Of a DNA stretch of 33,705 nucleotides, positions 1,619 to 28,970 are shown one piece after another. Each line of letters begins with the position of its first letter. The first letter of the stretch is position 1. The translations under genes were made by a program, and so were the position numbers. The notes under the pieces were generated by a model. The model was given only the letters and a program-made list of their open reading frames with translations, was not told the DNA's origin and searched no databases. This stretch comes from Armatimonadota bacterium (GTDB lineage: Bacteria > Armatimonadota > Armatimonadia > Armatimonadales > Armatimonadaceae): assembly GCA_026392155.1 (NCBI GenBank), contig JAPLCP010000066.1:1-33705 (forward strand). Reading direction: 5' to 3'.

Positions 1619-3771
1619 AGCCTATGCTCGGACTGATCTTAGCACTGACACTTGTCAGTGCCGCTTTTGCCCAGAACCCACGTATTGCGGCGCTCTACCC
1701 AGCGGGGGCGCAGGCGGGGCAGAGTGTGGAAGTGGCGATTCGAGGGGGAGGACTTGCCGGAGCCAAGCGTGTGGTGGTCAATGGCGCTCCTGGCGTCAAA
1801 GCCGAGCTGGTCGGTGGCAGTACCCAGGCCGATGATACGGTTCGTCCACTCTTCAACACCAAGTGTGTCACCTGTCATGAGTCGCGCTCGCCCGACAACC
1901 GCACGATGTCGCCAGAGCAGTGGGCCTCGACCGTGGATCGGATGATCACGGCCCGTGGGGCAGATATTAAAAAAGACGACCGCGATAAGATCGTCACCTG
2001 GCTTCAAGCAAGGGCCCGAGCCGGACAGGTGACGGCTAAGATCAGTGTCGCTGCCGATGCCCCTCCCGGCGTGCGCGAGGTGCGATTGGTGACAGAGCAG
2101 GGGGTCTCGACACCGTTTTCGTTTGAGATTGGGGGGCTTCCGGAGCTGCTGGCATTGCCGAACACGACCCTGAATGTGACTCTACCGACCGTGATCAATG
2201 GTGCGCTCACACAGTCCGCACAGCGCGATAAGTTTGTGTTTACTGCCAAAAAAGGTGAGGCTCTGACCTTCAACCTGAAAGCTTATCGTCTCAATGAGCA
2301 GTGCCCAATGTTCTTTAATCCGGTGCTCTATCTCTACAATGCCAAGGGCAAAGAGCTGGCCAAAAGCCTGGGGCGTATTGATATTGACCCGATCCTAGAG
2401 TGGGTCTGCCCCGATGATGGTGAGTATACACTGGTGACTCGGGACTTGCTCTGGAAAGGTAATCCGGCCTCAATCTACCGGCTGGCGATGGGGAACCTGC
2501 CTGCCGATCTCACACTCTCGAATCTCGTGGGCCGCCCGGGCAAGAGCTTCTCCGCGAGCATGGGCAGTCTCTCGGTCGAGGCGCAGCTGGACCGTGATGC
2601 AGCAGGTGTGACAATGGTGCCTACCCCGCTGGGCGACTCGCCGGTGCTGGTGCGCGATCTCCCCGATGGTGGGGGGGCGGTGGAAGTGGGACTGGCGACG
2701 GCAGTGACACTACCCGCGATGTTCTCCGGTCGGCTCACGCAGGAGCGCCAGGTGGATCGCTTTAAAGTGCTGGCACTCAAACCGGGGATGGGACTAGAGC
2801 TCTACACCAAGCGCCTTGGCTCGTCGCTACGTCCCCGTGTGACCATAAAAGACGAAAAAGATGCCGTGGTGCAGACCCGCGTGATGGATGGCGACGAAGA
2901 GCTGCGGATGCCAGGCTGCTTTCCCAAGGCCGCTGAGTATATAGTCGAGGTCACGGACTCACTGGCCTCAGGGGGAACCTACTGCTGGGAGACCATTGGT
3001 GCCGGAATCCCGGACTTTTCCCTCACCGTCACGCCCGATGGAGCCAATCTCGCACCGGGGCGTCGCGCGGCACTTCTCGTGCGTGCTACCCGCCGTGAGG
3101 CACTTCAAGGCCCGATCACCCTCAAGCTCAGGGGATTGCCTTCGGGAGTGAAGGCCGAAGTGGGGGTGATTCCCCCTGACGACGATAAGGCGCTGATTCT
3201 GATCTCCGCCGACGATCAGGCGGCGCTAGGTGGGGGGACGATCACGATTGAGGGAACCACAGAGCTTTCCGATAGTCAGGGCAATGTCCATACCCTTAAG
3301 CGGCAGGCTCGCCCGATAGAGCTCTACCGAACCCAGAACAACAACTTGCGCCCCATTGATCGTGGAGCCGCGTTTATCGGCATTGCACGTGAGGAGCCAC
3401 CGTTTGGCCTCTCCGTACAGGGAATCGAGAGCTTGGATCTGGGGCCTGGCAAGACCGCAACTGTGACCGTGAAAGTCGTGCGTCCCACCAATGGCCGCAG
3501 TGATGTGGTCATCACGGTGCTAGGCTTGCCGCCAGGCATTACCATTAACCAGACTGCGATCTACATTCCAGGTAACAAAGATGAAGCGGTTTTTACCCTT
3601 CGGGGATCAGATAACTCCAAGTACCTAGGGACACGTGATGCGAAGCTTCCTCCTCTAAAGTTTGTCTTTGTCGGAGCCACAGGAGGTCGCAACACAGACG
3701 CGCCCACGGACAGCACCGCCCCAATTATTGTAACGGCACCTCGTGAGGGTGGCATCAAGATCGGACGCTAG
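1615..3771 (+). CDS. Exported PPC/Ig-like protein with inserted CXXCH cytochrome c motif
   Basis: This 718-residue protein begins with a signal peptide (residues 1-19, ending 'LVSAAFA'). Residues about 21-67 look like the first half of an IPT/Ig-like domain ('LYPAGAQAGQSVEVAIRG'), and residues about 138-172 look like its second half ('ADAPPGVREVRLVTEQGVST'). Between them is a mini cytochrome c: C84-V-T-C87-H88 with a plausible axial methionine at M110 ('DRMITARGADIKK'). Residues about 180-300 resemble pre-peptidase C-terminal (PPC)-like beta sandwiches ('DKFVFTAKKGEALTFNLKAY'), and further beta-rich, Ig-like repeats follow to the end. The ATG overlaps the WD40 stop (ATGA), indicating translational coupling. 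A covalently bound haem in the periplasm or at the surface is expected; electron-transfer partners are unknown. Confidence 0.75.
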   Translation: MKPMLGLILALTLVSAAFAQNPRIAALYPAGAQAGQSVEVAIRGGGLAGAKRVVVNGAPGVKAELVGGSTQADDTVRPLFNTKCVTCHESRSPDNRTMSPEQWASTVDRMITARGADIKKDDRDKIVTWLQARARAGQVTAKISVAADAPPGVREVRLVTEQGVSTPFSFEIGGLPELLALPNTTLNVTLPTVINGALTQSAQRDKFVFTAKKGEALTFNLKAYRLNEQCPMFFNPVLYLYNAKGKELAKSLGRIDIDPILEWVCPDDGEYTLVTRDLLWKGNPASIYRLAMGNLPADLTLSNLVGRPGKSFSASMGSLSVEAQLDRDAAGVTMVPTPLGDSPVLVRDLPDGGGAVEVGLATAVTLPAMFSGRLTQERQVDRFKVLALKPGMGLELYTKRLGSSLRPRVTIKDEKDAVVQTRVMDGDEELRMPGCFPKAAEYIVEVTDSLASGGTYCWETIGAGIPDFSLTVTPDGANLAPGRRAALLVRATRREALQGPITLKLRGLPSGVKAEVGVIPPDDDKALILISADDQAALGGGTITIEGTTELSDSQGNVHTLKRQARPIELYRTQNNNLRPIDRGAAFIGIAREEPPFGLSVQGIESLDLGPGKTATVTVKVVRPTNGRSDVVITVLGLPPGITINQTAIYIPGNKDEAVFTLRGSDNSKYLGTRDAKLPPLKFVFVGATGGRNTDAPTDSTAPIIVTAPREGGIKIGR

Positions 3772-3776
3772 TTCTT

Positions 3777-4502
3777 TTGGACACCCACCTTCATCACACC
3801 ACTCCGCCGCACCACGACCACCACCATGAGTCGCACTTTCAGTCGTCGGAGAGCGTCCGCGATGTCGTTATCGGGATGGCCGATGGGCTTACGGTTCCCT
3901 TTGCCCTTGCCGCCGGTCTCTCGGGCGCGATTTTGGGAACCAATATCGTGGTCACCGCCGGGCTGGCCGAGATTGCAGCAGGCTCGATTGCGATGGGGCT
4001 TGGCGGCTATCTTGCCGCGCGAAGTGAGCTAGAGCACTACCAGAGTGAGAAGAAACGGGAAGCCTGGGAGGTCGTCCATAAGCCTGAGGCTGAAGCCGCC
4101 GAGATTCGTGAGGTTTTTGAAGGGTATGGCTTGACTGAGACAGAGATCGCCCCGATTATCGCCGGGCTGGAGCGAAACCCGGAGGCCTATGTCCAGTTCA
4201 TGATGCGCTTTGAGCTTGGCCTAGAAGAGCCCGATCCCAAGCGCGCCCTTCAAAGTGCGGTCACGATTGGAGTTTCCTATATTGTCGGGGGGCTGATTCC
4301 TCTCGCTCCGTATGTCTTTTTGAAGTCTCATGCTGAGGCATTTCGCCTTTCTTGCATCGTCACGCTGCTTGCTCTTTTTGTTTTTGGCTTTGTCAAAGGA
4401 CGATTCACGGGAAGCAATTCCTGGCGGAGCGCTCTAGAAACCGCTGGCATTGGTGGGATTGCGGCGGCCGTGGCCTATCTTCTCGCAAAAGCCTTTGGAT
4501 GA
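3777..4502 (+). CDS. VIT1/CCC1 family iron/manganese transporter
   Basis: The 241-residue product has a His-rich cytoplasmic N-terminus (residues 5-19), then the family signature 'VRDVVIGMADGLTVPF' with 'ALAAGLSGA' in the first membrane helix. A second helix follows ('AEIAAGSIAMGLGGYLAARS', about 66-85), then an acidic cytoplasmic metal-binding domain with many glutamates (about 86-155, 'SELEHYQSEKKREAWEV'), and three C-terminal helices. This matches VIT1/CCC1 proteins, which export Fe2+ or Mn2+ from the cytosol by proton exchange. The start is a TTG at 3777: there is no in-frame ATG until residue 34, inside the first helix, and the His-rich tail is typical of bacterial members. It lies 5 nt after the preceding stop, so co-transcription with the haem protein is likely. 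Confidence 0.88.
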   Translation: MDTHLHHTTPPHHDHHHESHFQSSESVRDVVIGMADGLTVPFALAAGLSGAILGTNIVVTAGLAEIAAGSIAMGLGGYLAARSELEHYQSEKKREAWEVVHKPEAEAAEIREVFEGYGLTETEIAPIIAGLERNPEAYVQFMMRFELGLEEPDPKRALQSAVTIGVSYIVGGLIPLAPYVFLKSHAEAFRLSCIVTLLALFVFGFVKGRFTGSNSWRSALETAGIGGIAAAVAYLLAKAFG

Positions 4503-4536
4503 TTTAAAAATTCTCCCGCACAGACCGATTACTTTT

Positions 4537-4557
4537 GTTACAATGCAGTCAGAGGTG
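4537..4557 (+). promoter_or_regulatory. Extended -10 promoter and ribosome binding site for the 4563 gene
   Basis: TACAAT at 4539-4544 is preceded by TG plus one base (extended -10). No good -35 is present at the expected distance. AGAGGTG at 4551-4557 is a Shine-Dalgarno sequence 5 nt before the ATG at 4563. This would start a new transcript for the 4563-7301 genes. Confidence 0.5.
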
Positions 4558-4562
4558 TTGTC

Positions 4563-4799
4563 ATGGATGAACAATTTATTTGCCCTTTTCCCTGGAAGTG
4601 GTCTATGATCTACGAAAAGCTCCATCGTGAGTGGACAGAGCGTGGCGATGAAGACGTGCCCGAGCCACCCCATCTTTTGCCTGCCATGACCAGTGATGGT
4701 CATCGTCAAGATCGCTGGCAAGAGACCGTGGAGTGGGCTGAGCAGCATGGTTTTGAAATTCCGCCTATTAGTGAAGACGAAAAATACTATAAGATGTAG
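4563..4799 (+). CDS. Small hypothetical protein
   Basis: This 78-residue soluble protein is rich in Trp and acidic residues ('CPFPWKWSMIYEKLHREW', 'PEPPHLLPAM') and I do not recognise a family. It is supported as a gene by a good Shine-Dalgarno (AGAGGTG, 5 nt spacing), an upstream extended -10 element, and by its stop codon, which lies inside the ribosome binding site of the next gene. The pattern of 'W..iy..LH.eW' followed by a proline-rich hinge and 'DRWQETVEWAEQHGFEIPP' looks like a compact helical domain. Nothing points to a role. Confidence 0.7.
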   Translation: MDEQFICPFPWKWSMIYEKLHREWTERGDEDVPEPPHLLPAMTSDGHRQDRWQETVEWAEQHGFEIPPISEDEKYYKM

Positions 4800-4805
4800 G
4801 AGTCT

Positions 4806-7067
4806 ATGAGGTTTGCCGCACCACCGCTTTTGTTAGTCGGATTTGTTCTTCTTTTTTACAGTAAATTGATGACAGGCAACGAGAGCCTGGTGCGGTTGGG
4901 CGAAGATGGCCCCCTTTTCTATTACCCCTCGCGGGTCTTTGCGCAGGAGTGTCTCCGTTCGGGTGTTTTGCCACACTGGAAACCCTATAGTTTTGCGGGA
5001 ATGCCGTTTCTGGCCAGCCTAGAGTCGGGCTTTTTCTCGCCTTGGTTTTGGCTAACAGTGGGGCTACCCGCAGGTCTTGGACTTCTGTGGGGCATGCTGG
5101 CGAACCTCTGCTTAGGGGCAGTCGGGATGTACTTTCTGCTGCTCCATTACACGCGCTCCGAACCCGCTGCGCTGTTCTCCGGGCTCGCCTTTGTGCTCGG
5201 GACGTTCTTCACGACCCGCGTGGGTTTTGGGCACTTCCCTGTGATTGAGGCCGCGATAGGCATGCCTTGGCTCTTGCTCGTGACCGAGAAGGTACTTTCA
5301 GAGCCGCAGGGCTGGCGCTGGTCGGTGCTCTTAGGAGCACTCTATGGAGCTAACTTGCTGGCGGGGTTTCCCGAGATTAGCTTTATGGTCGGTGTTGTCT
5401 TCACGCTACGCTGGATAATTGGCCTTCGTCTCGCACCGGTTGCCCTAGCAGTGCGCTATGGTATCGTCGTTCTGATCTCTCTTGGTACCTCTGCGATTCA
5501 GCTTTTCCCCGCACTCACGGTACTGGAGCGGACATCTCGTATGGCACTACCTCTCTCTTTTATCCAAGAGCAGTCCGTGCCTCCTCTAGCACTGCCGACT
5601 TTAGTCGTCCCCGATCTCTTAGGTAGTGCCGCGGCGCATAACGCCCTTCTCAAAGGCCCAAGTGTGGAGATGCCGGGGTATGTGGGTGTTCTGACACTTC
5701 AATTTGCTCTTGTAGCGCTCTTACTGGCACGACGGCGGCGGACTTGGTTTTTTGGGGCACTGGCGCTTGGGGGGATTCTGCTGGCAATGGGGGCGTTCAA
5801 TCCGCTTTACCCCTTTTTATCGAAGCTACCGGGTCTGAGCTTGATTGCTCGCCCGACGCGCTGGATGTTTCTATTTTCGTTCTCTGTGCCTGTGCTTGGA
5901 GGACTAGGGCTTAGTGCCCTGCTAGCCGCTGACAAAAGCACTCTTGAGAAGCTTCGCCCTTACTTTGTCGGTCTTTTGCTACTGGGGCTCGTTGTGCTCA
6001 TCGCCGTGGTTGTCGGTCATGGACGATTGATGGAGTGGGGACAGGCTCAGATTCACGCCCGCTATCCAGATCACCCCGAACGCCAGCTTGCTAAGCTTGA
6101 GGGAATGTTGGCTGGGCAGCGTCTTGGATTGGCACTCTTTGTCGCCTGGTCTGGAGCTGCTCTCCTTTTTTTGTTTCTGCGCTCACCCCGACGGGTCTAT
6201 CTGCCTGCCATCGTCCTCTTTTTAGACCTCTGGCTCAGCAATGCGAAGTACCTCTCTTTGCCTCAGCCCATCTCTCCACTGCCCATGGAGTTATTTCATG
6301 CAATGCTGCCTTCGGATGCCAAAGATTTTCGCTTTCTCCCACTGGAGAAGTCAAAGTTATGGCCTGAGGCAGGGGTTTTTTCTCATCGCAATAATGCCGT
6401 GGGTTACGACTCTCTTACCAGCAAGGAGCTATTTCAATATCTCGCAACCGCTTTTGGAAAGTCATCCCTTGAGATTGACCCACTCAGCCCGACCACAACA
6501 CCCCAAGACTGGCCACTGACCCAAGCGAGTCTACTCGACCGACTTGGAGTGCGCTATGTCATCAGTGAGCTACCGCTTCCCTTTCCTCGGCTCTCTCAGA
6601 CCCTCTATCGCCGTGACTCTGCGCTACCCTTGGCATCTGTAGCCACAAACTGGGTTGTCGAGGCAAGCCCCACGAAGATGCTGACGAAGCTAAGCACGCT
6701 CCCCGGCGACACGGCTGTCGTCATGCGATCTGTGGATCAAAAAAGCGCAAGCCATCCCAGGATGGTTGCTACGACGCGTCCCGATCCGAACACGATCGAG
6801 ATAACCCTGAACGGCGCCTCTGGTCTCTTGGTAATACATGAGGCCTATTACAAAGGCTGGGAGGCAACCATAGATCGTCGGCTCACACCAGTCATGATCA
6901 GCGACTATCTCTTTATGGGGGTACTGGTTCCCCCTGGTACTCAGAAAGTTCGCCTCACGTATCACGCTCCCTACTTCCGCGAGGGGAGCTCTGTCACAGG
7001 GATAACGGGAGCAGGGCTGTTAATTTTCCTTGTGGTTTCAGTGGCAAAACGCCGAAAATTCAGGTAA
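4806..7067 (+). CDS. YfhO-family polytopic membrane protein
   Basis: The 753-residue protein has about twelve hydrophobic segments spread over residues 1-480 and a soluble C-terminal region, then a last membrane helix (about 728-745). The segment after the first helix, 'DGPLFYYPSRVFAQECLRSG' with 'GVLPHWKPYSFAGMPFLAS', is the typical first extracytoplasmic loop of YfhO/GT-C-like proteins, and the C-terminal 'EAYYKGWEATID' with 'GVLVPPGTQKVRLTYHAPYF' is the characteristic YfhO end. B. subtilis YfhO acts in glycosylating lipoteichoic acid; most homologues are unassigned, presumably lipid-linked sugar transfer or flipping. TAGGAG lies 5 nt before ATG 4806 and contains the preceding stop, so the two genes are coupled. 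Confidence 0.8.
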   Translation: MRFAAPPLLLVGFVLLFYSKLMTGNESLVRLGEDGPLFYYPSRVFAQECLRSGVLPHWKPYSFAGMPFLASLESGFFSPWFWLTVGLPAGLGLLWGMLANLCLGAVGMYFLLLHYTRSEPAALFSGLAFVLGTFFTTRVGFGHFPVIEAAIGMPWLLLVTEKVLSEPQGWRWSVLLGALYGANLLAGFPEISFMVGVVFTLRWIIGLRLAPVALAVRYGIVVLISLGTSAIQLFPALTVLERTSRMALPLSFIQEQSVPPLALPTLVVPDLLGSAAAHNALLKGPSVEMPGYVGVLTLQFALVALLLARRRRTWFFGALALGGILLAMGAFNPLYPFLSKLPGLSLIARPTRWMFLFSFSVPVLGGLGLSALLAADKSTLEKLRPYFVGLLLLGLVVLIAVVVGHGRLMEWGQAQIHARYPDHPERQLAKLEGMLAGQRLGLALFVAWSGAALLFLFLRSPRRVYLPAIVLFLDLWLSNAKYLSLPQPISPLPMELFHAMLPSDAKDFRFLPLEKSKLWPEAGVFSHRNNAVGYDSLTSKELFQYLATAFGKSSLEIDPLSPTTTPQDWPLTQASLLDRLGVRYVISELPLPFPRLSQTLYRRDSALPLASVATNWVVEASPTKMLTKLSTLPGDTAVVMRSVDQKSASHPRMVATTRPDPNTIEITLNGASGLLVIHEAYYKGWEATIDRRLTPVMISDYLFMGVLVPPGTQKVRLTYHAPYFREGSSVTGITGAGLLIFLVVSVAKRRKFR

Positions 7068-7079
7068 AGTTAGAGTATT

Positions 7080-7301
7080 ATGATTGAGCTTTTCTTCACA
7101 AAGTTGAAATGGCAGCACCGTGCATTGCTGGCATGGGGAGGAACCCTAACGGGCATTGCGATTCTCTTCACGATTGGTCGCCAGGATTTTGTGGCCGCGC
7201 ACCCTGTCGAGCAGCAGTTCCTGACATTTGCGGGTTGGGGACTTGCCTTTTGGGGGCCGATTGTCCTTGCCATTTTTGAAGGTGAGCGCATGGATCGCTA
7301 G
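7080..7301 (+). CDS. Small two-helix membrane protein
   Basis: The 73-residue product has two hydrophobic stretches, roughly residues 16-33 ('ALLAWGGTLTGIAILFTI') and 47-65 ('FLTFAGWGLAFWGPIVLAIF'), with a basic start and end. It follows the YfhO stop by 12 nt and is directly followed by a terminator, so it is the last gene of that transcript. There is no clear Shine-Dalgarno; GGTAAAGTTAG, a weak relative of the leaderless promoter motif, lies 9 nt upstream of the ATG. No family recognised. Confidence 0.65.
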   Translation: MIELFFTKLKWQHRALLAWGGTLTGIAILFTIGRQDFVAAHPVEQQFLTFAGWGLAFWGPIVLAIFEGERMDR

Positions 7302-7330
7302 CGGGGCACCACAAAAATTAGGTGTTATAA

Positions 7331-7374
7331 AATAACCGCGAGCTGGTTTTTAGCCAGCTCACGGTTATTTTTTC
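7331..7374. terminator. Bidirectional rho-independent terminator
   Basis: An 8-bp stem (AATAACCG with CGGTTATT) continues after one mismatch into a 7-bp stem (GAGCTGG 7340-7346 with CCAGCTC 7354-7360) around a 7-nt loop. On the plus strand it is followed by a T-run from 7367. On the minus strand it follows the stop of the 7700 gene, whose last codons lie in the T/A-rich arm. It separates the two convergent transcripts. Confidence 0.9.
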
Positions 7375-7700
7375 TTTTTGCGCTCGCGCCTAATTTTGCC
7401 TTCGCGCAGTGCCTCGGTTCGAATGTGTGCCGCTCGCTCGCGCTCTTCCCGTTCGCGCCACCAGCGTTTCTCCGCTTCGTCACGCTGGTCTTCACGCCAG
7501 CGGCGCACGGCTACCTGGACGGGTGGCTGTAGGTAGATTGTGATGGCTAGAGCCGTCCCAACGAGGGGAAGAGACCATTTGCCTCCGATTTGGAAGCGTA
7601 GCTCCTGTGAGGCAACTAAGCAGGCAAAAAGCGCTGTGACTAATACTAGGACGAGAAACCATCCTAGATCGAATGTTTTGGGTTTTTGTCTCTGTTGCAT
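7365..7700 (-). CDS. Small membrane protein with basic, charged tail
   Basis: The 111-residue protein has two hydrophobic helices (about residues 13-31, 'LGWFLVLVLVTALFACLVA', and 43-58) and a very charged Arg/Glu/Lys C-terminal half, probably a long cytoplasmic helix ('REREERERAAHIRTEALREG'), ending in a lysine run. I prefer ATG 7700 over the GTG one codon upstream. A possible promoter with -10 TATACT lies at 7736-7731, at the end of the VOC gene. The stop lies within the bidirectional terminator. No family recognised. Confidence 0.65.
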   Translation of the reverse strand: MQQRQKPKTFDLGWFLVLVLVTALFACLVASQELRFQIGGKWSLPLVGTALAITIYLQPPVQVAVRRWREDQRDEAEKRWWREREERERAAHIRTEALREGKIRRERKKKK

Positions 7701-7738
7701 CACGGCTAGAAGAGTTTATTTAGTGATCAAAGTATACC

Positions 7739-8143
7739 TTAAAGTTCGTCATTTTGGAAGAACTCCCAGGTTTCTTTGTCTGGCCCTAAAAAGAAGCCTA
7801 CCCGAATGGTTTTCCCATTGACATCTACACTTTTGGGCTCGATCGTGATCGTGCAACCTAGTTCTCTTACTTTTTCAATATCGGTATCTACATCTGTGGA
7901 GCGTAGGGCAACATGAAAGAATTGATTTCCTTCGATGATCTCGGTGCCCTCTGTGCAGGCAAAAAGCTCTAGGTAGTTTCCATCTCCTAGGTCTAGTAGG
8001 GCGATACGTTTTTCACCCTCACCCCAAGAGTGCGCGATGGGAAAACCCATGCCTTCGGTGTAGAAGGCCAGTGATTTATCAAAATTTCGAGCACGTAGAG
8101 CAATGTGATGGAAGCCACCTTGGCTAAAGCGCGATGTAGACAT
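7739..8143 (-). CDS. VOC family (glyoxalase/bleomycin-resistance-like) protein
   Basis: The 134-residue protein is a single vicinal-oxygen-chelate unit of two beta-alpha-beta-beta-beta modules. Module 1 runs 'GFHHIALRARNFDKSLAFY' to 'GDGNYLELF'; module 2 runs 'FFHVALRSTDVDTDIEKV' to 'GPDKETWEFFQ'. The four expected metal ligands are present as H12/H13, E59, H77 and E127. Family members act on small electrophiles, catechols or antibiotics; the substrate cannot be read from sequence. AGGAA lies 9 nt upstream of ATG 8143 and overlaps the stop of the upstream unknown gene, so it is the end of a run starting at the Mur ligase. Confidence 0.88.
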   Translation of the reverse strand: MSTSRFSQGGFHHIALRARNFDKSLAFYTEGMGFPIAHSWGEGEKRIALLDLGDGNYLELFACTEGTEIIEGNQFFHVALRSTDVDTDIEKVRELGCTITIEPKSVDVNGKTIRVGFFLGPDKETWEFFQNDEL

Positions 8144-26314: not shown

Positions 26315-26440
26315 ATTGCTCAGCACGCTTTCTGTGATGCTCATAGCCCTCTCGGAGGTGCTCATGGCCGTCTCCGAGATGCTCATCGTTTGTTCTGACA
26401 TACTCATGGTGCTCTCGGAGGTGCTCATTGCCAGTTTTGA
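26315..26440. repeat. 21-bp tandem repeats, six units
   Basis: Six consecutive 21-bp units, the first and last more diverged, follow the pattern GRTGCTCATRGCCNTCTCSGA. Unit boundaries are 26315, 26336, 26357, 26378, 26399 and 26420, with no gaps. Because the period is a multiple of three both strands stay open: plus reads hydrophobic heptads ('LSEVLMAVSEMLIV'), minus reads 'MSTSEST', 'MSMSEQT', 'MSISETA' heptads. No start codon with a ribosome binding site proves either is translated. Confidence 0.8.
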
Positions 26441-26513: not shown

Positions 26514-27425
26514 TTACTTTCGGCGGCGCTTTGCCAGCACCGCAACGCCGCCAAGGGCAAGAAGAACCAGCGTGCCGGGTTCGGGGGCGGCGCTGGAGAG
26601 AGCAGGAGAAAATGCCAGGCCGCCAGGTGAGTTCATGTTGCCTGAGATGCTGCTCTGAAAGACACCCGCGGAGTTGAACCTGCTGATCGTATTGTTGCCT
26701 AAATTTGCCGCATAGAGGTTTCCCGTGGAGTCGAATGCTACGTCTACGGGGCCATCCAAATTAGTGTTAATATTGCCCTGATACGCGCCTGCTGCATTAA
26801 ATATACTAATCGTGTTGTCGCCAAAATTTGCCGCATAGATATTGTTACTTGCATCTATTGTCAGGCCGTAAGGGAAGTTTAGGTTGGTGCTGATACTGCT
26901 AATAAAGGTACCCGCGGAGTTGAACCTGCTGATCGTATTGTTGCCCGCGTTTGCTGCATAGAGATTACCACTGGAGTCAATGGCCAGGCCTATGACCCCA
27001 CTTAGGTTGGTGCTGATGCTACTCTGAAAGACACCCGCGGAGTTGAACCTGCTAATGGTATTGTTGCCCGAGTTTGCTGCATAGAGATCTCCACTGGAGT
27101 CAATGGCCAGGCCTATGACCCCACTTAGGTTGGTGCTGATGCTACTCTGAAAGACTCCCGCAGCGTTGAACTTGCTGATGGTATCGTTCCCCCCATTCGC
27201 TGCATAGAAGTTGCCGCTGGAGTCGAATGCGATCCGAGCGGGGCGATTTAAGTTGGTGCTAATGCTGCTCTGAAAGACACCTGCGGGGTTGAAGATGCTG
27301 ATCGTATTATTGCCAGAAGCTGAATTTGCAACGTAGAGATTCTGTGCGTGTGCGGTTATTGCGGTGAGTGTGGCGCTACTGAGGAGGGCTAGTGCGGTGA
27401 GAGGGATAAGAGAGCGAAGAGTCAT
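26514..27425 (-). CDS. PEP-CTERM surface protein with NHL-like beta-propeller repeats
   Basis: The 303-residue protein has a signal peptide (residues 1-27, 'ALALLSSATLTAITAHA'), about six repeats of 41 residues ('GLAIDSSGNLYAANAGNNTI' then 'SRFNSAGVFQSSIS') forming an NHL-type propeller, and a PEP-CTERM sorting signal at the end: 'APEPGTLVLLALGG', hydrophobic helix and 'KRRRK'. PEP-CTERM proteins are processed by an exosortase and displayed on or released from the surface; no exosortase gene lies in this window. Repeats 3 and 4 are nearly identical at DNA level. The ATG has no close Shine-Dalgarno; AGGAA lies about 16 nt upstream and TACACT is a possible -10. Confidence 0.88.
   Translation of the reverse strand: MTLRSLIPLTALALLSSATLTAITAHAQNLYVANSASGNNTISIFNPAGVFQSSISTNLNRPARIAFDSSGNFYAANGGNDTISKFNAAGVFQSSISTNLSGVIGLAIDSSGDLYAANSGNNTISRFNSAGVFQSSISTNLSGVIGLAIDSSGNLYAANAGNNTISRFNSAGTFISSISTNLNFPYGLTIDASNNIYAANFGDNTISIFNAAGAYQGNINTNLDGPVDVAFDSTGNLYAANLGNNTISRFNSAGVFQSSISGNMNSPGGLAFSPALSSAAPEPGTLVLLALGGVAVLAKRRRK
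26961..27180 (-). repeat. Near-identical 123-bp repeat units in the PEP-CTERM gene
   Basis: Two neighbouring copies beginning at 26961 and 27084 share nearly all bases over about 95 bp (for example both contain GGCCAGGCCTATGACCCC), while the other repeat units of the gene are more diverged. The period of 123 bp equals 41 residues. This indicates a recent duplication or gene conversion within the propeller. Confidence 0.75.
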
Positions 27426-27574
27426 TAGGGGTGTTTTACTTTCCTGAGTGTATTGAGCGGATCTTAGGGAACGGGGTACCTGGATGGCGGGGAGCCGATG
27501 CTATCCCGATGAACCAACTGGGTGGCTGATGCCATAGGTATTTATACTGAGCAGCCACCTGGAAAGTCTAGGTT

Positions 27575-27630
27575 GTTCCCGAAAGTGAAACAGAGTTCCC
27601 GTTGTTGAAACAGCCTGAACAATCTAAAAT
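27575..27630 (+). promoter_or_regulatory. Promoter with two direct operator-like repeats
   Basis: GTTCCCGAAAGTGAAACAG (27575-27593) and GTTCCCGTTGTTGAAACAG (27595-27613) are 19-bp direct repeats with a 20-bp period, about two helical turns, and 15 of 19 bases identical. The second covers the -35 hexamer TTGTTG (27602-27607), which is 17 bp from the -10 TAAAAT (27625-27630). The ATG follows 17 nt later, without a ribosome binding site. Confidence 0.65.
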
Positions 27631-27647
27631 AATGGCTGTTATACGTC

Positions 27648-28970
27648 ATGGAGCTAAGTGCGTTTCTCAAAGAGCTAGTACGAAAAACGGAGCTTTCGAC
27701 CGTTGTGTGTGCGGAGCAGACCGGCGTGAGCCGGACATCGCTCTGGCGCTGGTTGAGCGGCAAGTCCCTTCCGCGTGATATCGAGCTAGAGTCGCTCCTG
27801 AAGGTGCTGACAAGTGATCCTCAGATACGTGCACGTGCCTTTACCCTCTTGGAGCAAGCGCGGGGCGGCGGGGTTCTACGGCTCCAGGAAAAAGTCGGGA
27901 TTCCTCTCTTAGACCGCAGCATTCTCTTGGTGGCTCTGCGTGAGCGTCGCGGCTGGAGCCAGACCTTTGCCGCAGAGCAGGCAGAGATTCCCCGCTCGAC
28001 CCTGGCAAACTGGGAGCGGGGTGCCAAGTGGCCCAGCACCGACCGCCTCCACACGCTCTGTTTTCACTACCAGGCCACGCACGGCGAGTTCCTGGCGCTC
28101 ACACTGCCCTTCACCAGTGCCGGAGTGTACCTAGACGAGTCCCTCGACTTGGTTGAGATTCGTCAGCGCTTCGAGCGAGATGCACTGGGGCAGGTAGATC
28201 CCATCGCCACCATGATTCTCGCACAGCGCCTCGGCCAGCTCGCGCTAACCGACCCCGAGGCAAAGGCGCTCCTCTGCCGCGCCTACGCTCACCTGGGAAA
28301 TCTCTTTCCTTTGATACAGACGCGCCCCCGAACGAAGTACTTTCTTGACCTCGTAGCGAAGCTAGAGCCGGAGGGCTCCTCGGAGAACTTCTTTCAGTAC
28401 ACGCTCTCCCTCACACACTTCATACGCGAGCAGTTGATTTATCTTCCCACTGGCCCCAAGGGAGACGAGCTGAAGCGGAAGGTTAAGCCAAAGATTGGAA
28501 GGCAGTGTGAGCTTGTCTTGGCGAAAGTCGAGAAATATGTGGAGGACATGCCTCTACCTCTCCAAATTCGCTGGCTCGATCACATGGCTCAAGCTAAGAT
28601 ACAGCAAGGTGATTTCAAAAGCGCGACAAACTTCATTGAGAGAACAGACCGTGTTTTTGAGGAGTCTGGGGATAGTTTTATCTACGGTCGTTTAGCGGAG
28701 AGAGTACATCGCTATATGAACATGAAAGAGTACGAAAAGGCAATTAACATGATTCCAACGAGTGGATATAGTGACGAGCTGATTTTTCTCGATTTTAGTT
28801 ATTTCCGAGCGGCTTGCCTATACCAGCTAGGAAGTGTTCATGAGGGAGTTAAGCTGGCGGAAGACATCTATAGGCGTTTACTGAGTATGCCTGTCCCTTC
28901 TCCAGGTTCGATCAGGATGTTAGAGCGTTTTCTCGAAGACCATGCGCTGAGAATGACGATGAAGTCCTAA
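27648..28970 (+). CDS. Double helix-turn-helix regulator with TPR-like C-terminal domain
   Basis: The 440-residue protein has two N-terminal HTH regions: residues about 10-50 ('VVCAEQTGVSRTSLWRWLSG') and an XRE-type domain at about 92-145 ('ERRGWSQTFAAEQAEIPRST', 'LANWERGAKWPSTDRL'). Residues 180-435 are helical repeats resembling TPRs ('AQAKIQQGDFKSATNFIER', 'HRYMNMKEYEKAINMIP', 'AACLYQLGSVHEGVKLAEDI'). This architecture recalls RRNPP-type peptide-responsive regulators, although those have one HTH. Direct repeats across its own -35 box suggest autoregulation. Codon use toward the 3' end (from about 28450) is more AT-rich than the 5' end. It is convergent with rmlD and overlaps it by 4 bp. 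Confidence 0.78.
   Translation: MELSAFLKELVRKTELSTVVCAEQTGVSRTSLWRWLSGKSLPRDIELESLLKVLTSDPQIRARAFTLLEQARGGGVLRLQEKVGIPLLDRSILLVALRERRGWSQTFAAEQAEIPRSTLANWERGAKWPSTDRLHTLCFHYQATHGEFLALTLPFTSAGVYLDESLDLVEIRQRFERDALGQVDPIATMILAQRLGQLALTDPEAKALLCRAYAHLGNLFPLIQTRPRTKYFLDLVAKLEPEGSSENFFQYTLSLTHFIREQLIYLPTGPKGDELKRKVKPKIGRQCELVLAKVEKYVEDMPLPLQIRWLDHMAQAKIQQGDFKSATNFIERTDRVFEESGDSFIYGRLAERVHRYMNMKEYEKAINMIPTSGYSDELIFLDFSYFRAACLYQLGSVHEGVKLAEDIYRRLLSMPVPSPGSIRMLERFLEDHALRMTMKS

Follow-up and report, generated by a model that had tools for sequence, protein, structure and literature searches.

A regulator from a tandem-HTH/TPR family of Armatimonadota probably controls itself and a divergent secreted-protein gene through twin intergenic sites

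Introduction

AraC is transcribed divergently from its target and represses its own synthesis. In the case of XylS at the Pm promoter, two 15-bp direct repeats are read by the two recognition helices of the protein, and binding is sequential and cooperative (PMC5481539). Peptide-sensing regulators of the RRNPP type are recognized by a different signature, namely a receptor of 250-500 aa with TPRs and a directly adjacent gene for an exported propeptide (PMC10075063). Our literature searches found no work on regulators in which tandem HTHs are joined to TPRs, nor on regulators of PEP-CTERM proteins in Armatimonadota. Here we analyze such a gene from an Armatimonadota genome (G000; 4.77 Mb in 228 contigs), where it lies in a stretch of 33,705 nucleotides that we refer to as the window.

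Results

The regulator gene (27648..28970, + strand) is an ORF of 440 aa with an ATG start. HTH domain 1 (aa 1-58; 27648..27821, +), delimited with the family alignment and the structure model, is diverged and reads WLSG against the family consensus WESG, while HTH domain 2 (aa 90-152; 27915..28103, +), delimited in the same way and by HTH_31, is the best-conserved part of the family. Both HTH regions are covered by Pfam HTH_31/HTH_3 (5.8e-18, with aa 94-147 as the strongest segment), and scores of 65.4 bits for HTH_31 (cut-off 27) and 51.3 for HTH_3 (cut-off 23) place the protein in the XRE (Cro/CI) superfamily. The AraC-type model HTH_18 was absent from the Pfam scan, in which the HTHs above cut-off were all XRE-type; the regulator is therefore to be placed outside the AraC/XylS family. 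The C-terminal part (aa 158-440; 28119..28967, +) gave weak TPR-type matches in the domain scan and is predicted by AlphaFold2, from the regulator aligned with nine relatives, to fold entirely into helices that form a TPR superhelix, beginning near aa 158 and running to aa 440. The model has a mean confidence of 76.7 and a pTM of 0.50, with pLDDT of about 85-93 over the two HTHs, and by structure comparison its TPR part resembles (Z up to 17) TPR superhelices from functionally diverse proteins, among them Rap and NprR. Both the Pfam matches and the model bear out the preliminary description of this locus, which had proposed two DNA-binding regions and a TPR-like domain. PADLOC matches to RmrA and capH covered the HTH only and were discarded.

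On sequence grounds, the window gene is a member of a lineage-specific Armatimonadota family, defined here by two XRE HTHs, a TPR domain of about 280 residues, a length of 400-470 aa and GDLLRALR/WE motifs; the window protein keeps LL-AL-R, W-E and WPS-LH-LC and lacks GD. Neither Pfam nor NCBIfam holds a full-length model for this family. A protein search of 61 genomes gave matches in nine, its own genome counted. With a profile, 60 of 291 Armatimonadota genomes gave a match, and some 40 of these matches spanned all or nearly all of the protein; a scan of genome contigs with the single protein as query gave no match. Its own genome holds no full-length paralogue, and no plasmid relatives were found. 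About 44 relatives were collected and 42 aligned; the HTH pair and the long C-terminal domain are present in every aligned member, and those aligned with the window protein are 19-24% identical to it. The window gene lacks a close orthologue (the best matches, at 32-40%, cover the HTH part only), which makes classical footprinting of the operator by comparison impossible. Named relatives belong to Armatimonadota, Chthonomonadaceae and Fimbriimonadales, and a single member, L135, lies outside Armatimonadota in a MAG labelled Chloroflexi. Because none of 300 other genomes of that group holds a member, L135 is likely a transfer or a mislabelled contig. In this contig, the exact motif GAAAGTGGAACG lies 18 bp before the start of the gene (3207-4577), and the neighbour is a divergent gene for a secreted protein.

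The divergent partner in the window (26514..27425, - strand) encodes, according to the domain scan, a secreted NHL beta-propeller protein of 303 aa with a signal peptide and a PEP-CTERM tail. Across the family, the upstream neighbour is divergent in 24 of the 36 homologues for which a neighbour was called, and it looks secreted in 16 of these 24 (the window is counted, and several members may come from one genome) against 14 of 84 background genes (p=5.8e-6), the background being divergently paired genes taken from the window and from twenty 20-kb regions in related genomes. Counted by genome, 15 of 20 have a secreted-looking divergent neighbour. In a held-out set of twelve members plus L135, the same was true of 5 of 6 divergent neighbours (p=0.0014), while twenty other XRE regulators of the same genomes, used as control, gave 0 of 6. 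When all neighbours are considered, the family has 30 of 76 secreted-looking (one of them, a dTDP-rhamnose-type reductase downstream of the window gene, being a likely false positive) versus 2 of 37 for the other XRE regulators. Genes and signal peptides were called with home-made rules that were the same for cases and controls; the signal-peptide rule is simple, as it misses L053_2 and L064 and passes the pilin-like proteins L083 and L196. Partners include NHL/PEP-CTERM proteins (window and L050, the latter of the ScyD/ScyE family), HAF repeats, an SBBP propeller, a PEP-CTERM trypsin, and TIG/beta-helix, LamG/Big, CAP, secretin and matrixin-like proteins. Since divergence from a secreted-protein gene is a family trait, the divergent PEP-CTERM gene pointed out in the preliminary description is indeed relevant.

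Several loci are worth recording in their own right. In L050 (G003; 2-1063, 1511-2812, 3287-4546), a ScyD/ScyE-type PEP-CTERM gene is flanked by two family regulators. In L053 (G001; 4004-7774), two adjacent family paralogues with a near-identical promoter motif each have their own divergent secreted gene, one for a secretin-domain protein and the other for a CAP protein. A family of secreted proteins longer than 1200 aa recurs beside regulators, in several orientations, in L059, L060, L065 and L057; its members start like YxYNxTxxTxNQxMW, and the one in L059 carries TIG and beta-helix. In the window, a short run of GTGCTCAT/ATGCTCAT-type repeated units lies at 26330-26430, in the interval from the PhyH gene to the PEP-CTERM gene.

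Two putative operators lie in the 222-bp gap between the regulator and its partner, namely repeat 1, GTTCCCGAAAGTGAAACAG (27575..27593, +), and repeat 2, GTTCCCGTTGTTGAAACAG (27595..27613, +), which are identical at 15 of 19 positions and 20 bp apart from start to start. Repeat 2 overlaps the regulator's -35 box (TTGAAA; 27605..27610, +), found by consensus scan together with a -10 box (AATAAT; 27628..27633, +) 17 bp further on and 14 nt ahead of the start codon; the layout given in the preliminary description was thus found in place. For the divergent gene, a weak candidate -35 (TAGACT; 27565..27570, -), read by eye and missed by the consensus scan, lies 5 bp from repeat 1, and a candidate -10 (TATAAA; 27541..27546, -), likewise read from the sequence, 18 bp from that -35. 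An additional half-site-like GAACAATCTA (27617..27626, strand not assigned) is inverted relative to TAGGTTGTTC at 27569-27578 (9/10). Each 19-mer can also be read as an inverted repeat, though an imperfect one, of the form (T/A)GTTCC-N7-GAAACA, so that a direct repeat of whole sites and a set of four half-sites are both possible. A repeat at least as good was reached in 18 of 2000 dinucleotide shuffles of the gap, any offset from 10 to 60 being counted, i.e. about 1% by chance. No further exact copies of either repeat occur in the 4.8-Mb assembly, as fits the expectation for a dedicated local operator, and, with 2 mismatches allowed, the repeat pattern has 19 matches versus 91 for its reversed control. 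The preliminary description had suggested a search for paralogues sharing these repeats; none is found in the genome, the whole assembly having been searched for copies.

Further features of the gap are a GAAAGTAAAACA on the - strand at 27432-27443, which agrees with the GAAAGTGAAACA of repeat 1 at 11 of 12 positions, lies 6 bp upstream of the PEP-CTERM start codon and could be a third site or chance, and the short distance of 14 bp from the end of the -10 box to the ATG, with no Shine-Dalgarno seen in 27633-27648. Given this spacing and the missing Shine-Dalgarno, the regulator may be transcribed as a leaderless mRNA; homologues with short leaders also occur repeatedly. No Rfam model matched the gap at a score close to its cut-off.

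Upstream of the homologues, the expectation that the repeats would be kept in the same place held in part: the same sequence is missing in most of them, but three have repeats with the 20-bp offset and many have a related half-site motif. Besides the window, four homologues have a direct repeat of at least 14/19, in three of them (L050, L056, L074) at exactly 20 bp, with the offset kept and a sequence unrelated to that of the window. This exact offset, at the same threshold, occurs in 3 of 33 intergenic homologue upstreams versus 1 of 137 in the background (p=0.023). Autocorrelation over the homologues without the window gave 20, 21 and 10 as top offsets for 19-mers; offset 20 (p=0.007 for 19-mers) and offsets 10/11 (p=0.0007), all multiples of the helical turn, were above the non-coding background. 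Several of these statistics, patterns and thresholds were partly picked after the data had been seen.

An unsupervised search of the upstreams returned a GAAAttGcAacA-like motif, in most cases oriented like the gene; within f30, whose homologues are not independent of one another, it scored 76 versus about 42 in shuffles. The pattern RAAANTGNAACR, written after f30, f14 and the window had been inspected, matches 16 of 42 upstreams with at most 1 mismatch versus 1.6 expected on either strand, and all 16 matches are on the gene's own strand; GAAAGTGAAACA of repeat 1 fits it exactly. Out of sample, it occurs exactly in L135, which had no part in the making of the pattern, and in 0 of 12 held-out distant f14 members. 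This type of motif is clade-limited, and we read this as a site that diverges along with its protein. Transfer was weak, in that a profile trained on f30 alone did not find the sites of other families overall (Fisher p=0.20); the first training had picked up the -10 box only. No enrichment of inverted repeats was seen upstream of the homologues, and no upstream stood out against its shuffles. Similarity between the recognition helices of HTH1 and HTH2 did not correlate with 10-bp repeats (rho -0.02), which weakens the step of the model below in which each HTH takes one groove.

Discussion

We favor, with moderate confidence, a one-component transcription factor that would bind cooperatively at direct repeats, repress its own gene, control the divergent gene and sense a cue through its TPR domain. 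By analogy, the likeliest mechanism would be AraC/XylS-like in its logic, and the regulator probably controls both itself and the divergent secreted-protein gene through the twin intergenic sites. A single monomer would read each 19-bp repeat, its two HTHs entering consecutive major grooves, and cooperative binding would place two such monomers next to each other on the same DNA face. As repeat 2 holds the -35 box and repeat 1 is 5 bp from the partner's candidate promoter, the complex would cover the former and adjoin the latter, with negative autoregulation on one side and either activation or repression of the partner on the other. The TPR domain would set the binding state by sensing a cytoplasmic cue, be it a peptide, a protein partner or a small ligand. 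We infer the cooperative binding, the autorepression, the partner control and the TPR sensing; the arrangement of two sites on one face over a promoter does fit the cooperative autoregulation of the preliminary description, with the binding itself inferred.

A more conventional possibility, which we regard as rather unlikely, is that of an ordinary XRE repressor controlling only itself, for which each 19-mer would be an inverted repeat bound by a dimer with one HTH per monomer, two dimers would stack at the tandem operators, and the second HTH and the TPR domain would serve dimerization or sensing. Palindromes are in fact the classical sites of XRE repressors, the window repeats fit TGTTCC-N7-GAAACA and AGTTCC-N7-GAAACA, and visual inspection shows a palindrome in CGTTCC-N10-GGAACG, the L082 site of f14. 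The homologue upstreams, however, are enriched in direct repeats (10/11 and 20/21 bp) and not in inverted ones, and secreted divergent partners recur across the family. It is improbable that the repeats arose by chance or are left over from a former promoter and the protein acts elsewhere: the shuffles of the gap and the lack of repeats this strong in most homologues would agree with it, but the 20-bp offset recurs in three homologues and an oriented motif lies upstream of many. Weakest is the proposal of a peptide-sensing, RRNPP-like cell-cell signalling regulator outside Firmicutes, very improbable in our view because, in spite of an HTH and TPR architecture of fitting length, a PlcR TPR profile match (E 1.3e-4) and a whole-chain Foldseek list led by Rgg2, PlcR, PrgX and ComR (all weak; best E 0.005 for Rgg2 and PlcR, TM-score about 0.2-0.3), the TPR resemblance is of a general kind, LGN, Rap and KLC being matched alike, no small exported propeptide gene or other short secreted ORF adjoins the window gene, whose end overlaps a convergent gene by 4 bp, and such ORFs stand beside 2 of 44 family genes versus 3 of 205 background genes, leaving a resemblance that is architectural.

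Within the favored AraC/XylS-like reading, a more speculative extension, to which we give little credence, is a secretion-coupled feedback in which the TPR domain would sense the unexported form of the partner or a peptide from signal-peptide or PEP-CTERM processing. If true, each family member would be a dedicated gauge of one surface protein, with an AraC-like DNA logic built from XRE domains.

These findings add a regulator family in a phylum for which there is hardly any work on gene regulation, and many uncharacterized secreted beta-propeller, HAF and PEP-CTERM proteins of Armatimonadota gain a probable dedicated regulator. Among known systems, single-HTH XRE repressors such as SinR, P22 C2 and ClgR share with it the HTH fold and operators that overlap the promoter, but have one HTH per monomer, mostly palindromic operators and no TPR. 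The RRNPP/RRNPPA regulators (PlcR, Rgg, PrgX, NprR) have the same order of XRE HTH and TPR within 250-500 aa; they differ in having one HTH instead of two and an adjacent propeptide gene that is missing here, and in belonging to another phylum. Closest in arrangement are AraC at araI1-I2 and XylS at Pm, with two HTHs per monomer, two direct-repeat sites and overlap with the polymerase site, whereas the HTHs of the regulator described here are of the XRE/Cro-CI type and N-terminal, its sensor is a TPR domain, and there is no sequence relation. If the DNA logic proposed here is true, AraC-type control, in which monomers with two HTHs read direct repeats spaced by two turns and the target is divergent, would have originated twice, the second time from XRE domains.
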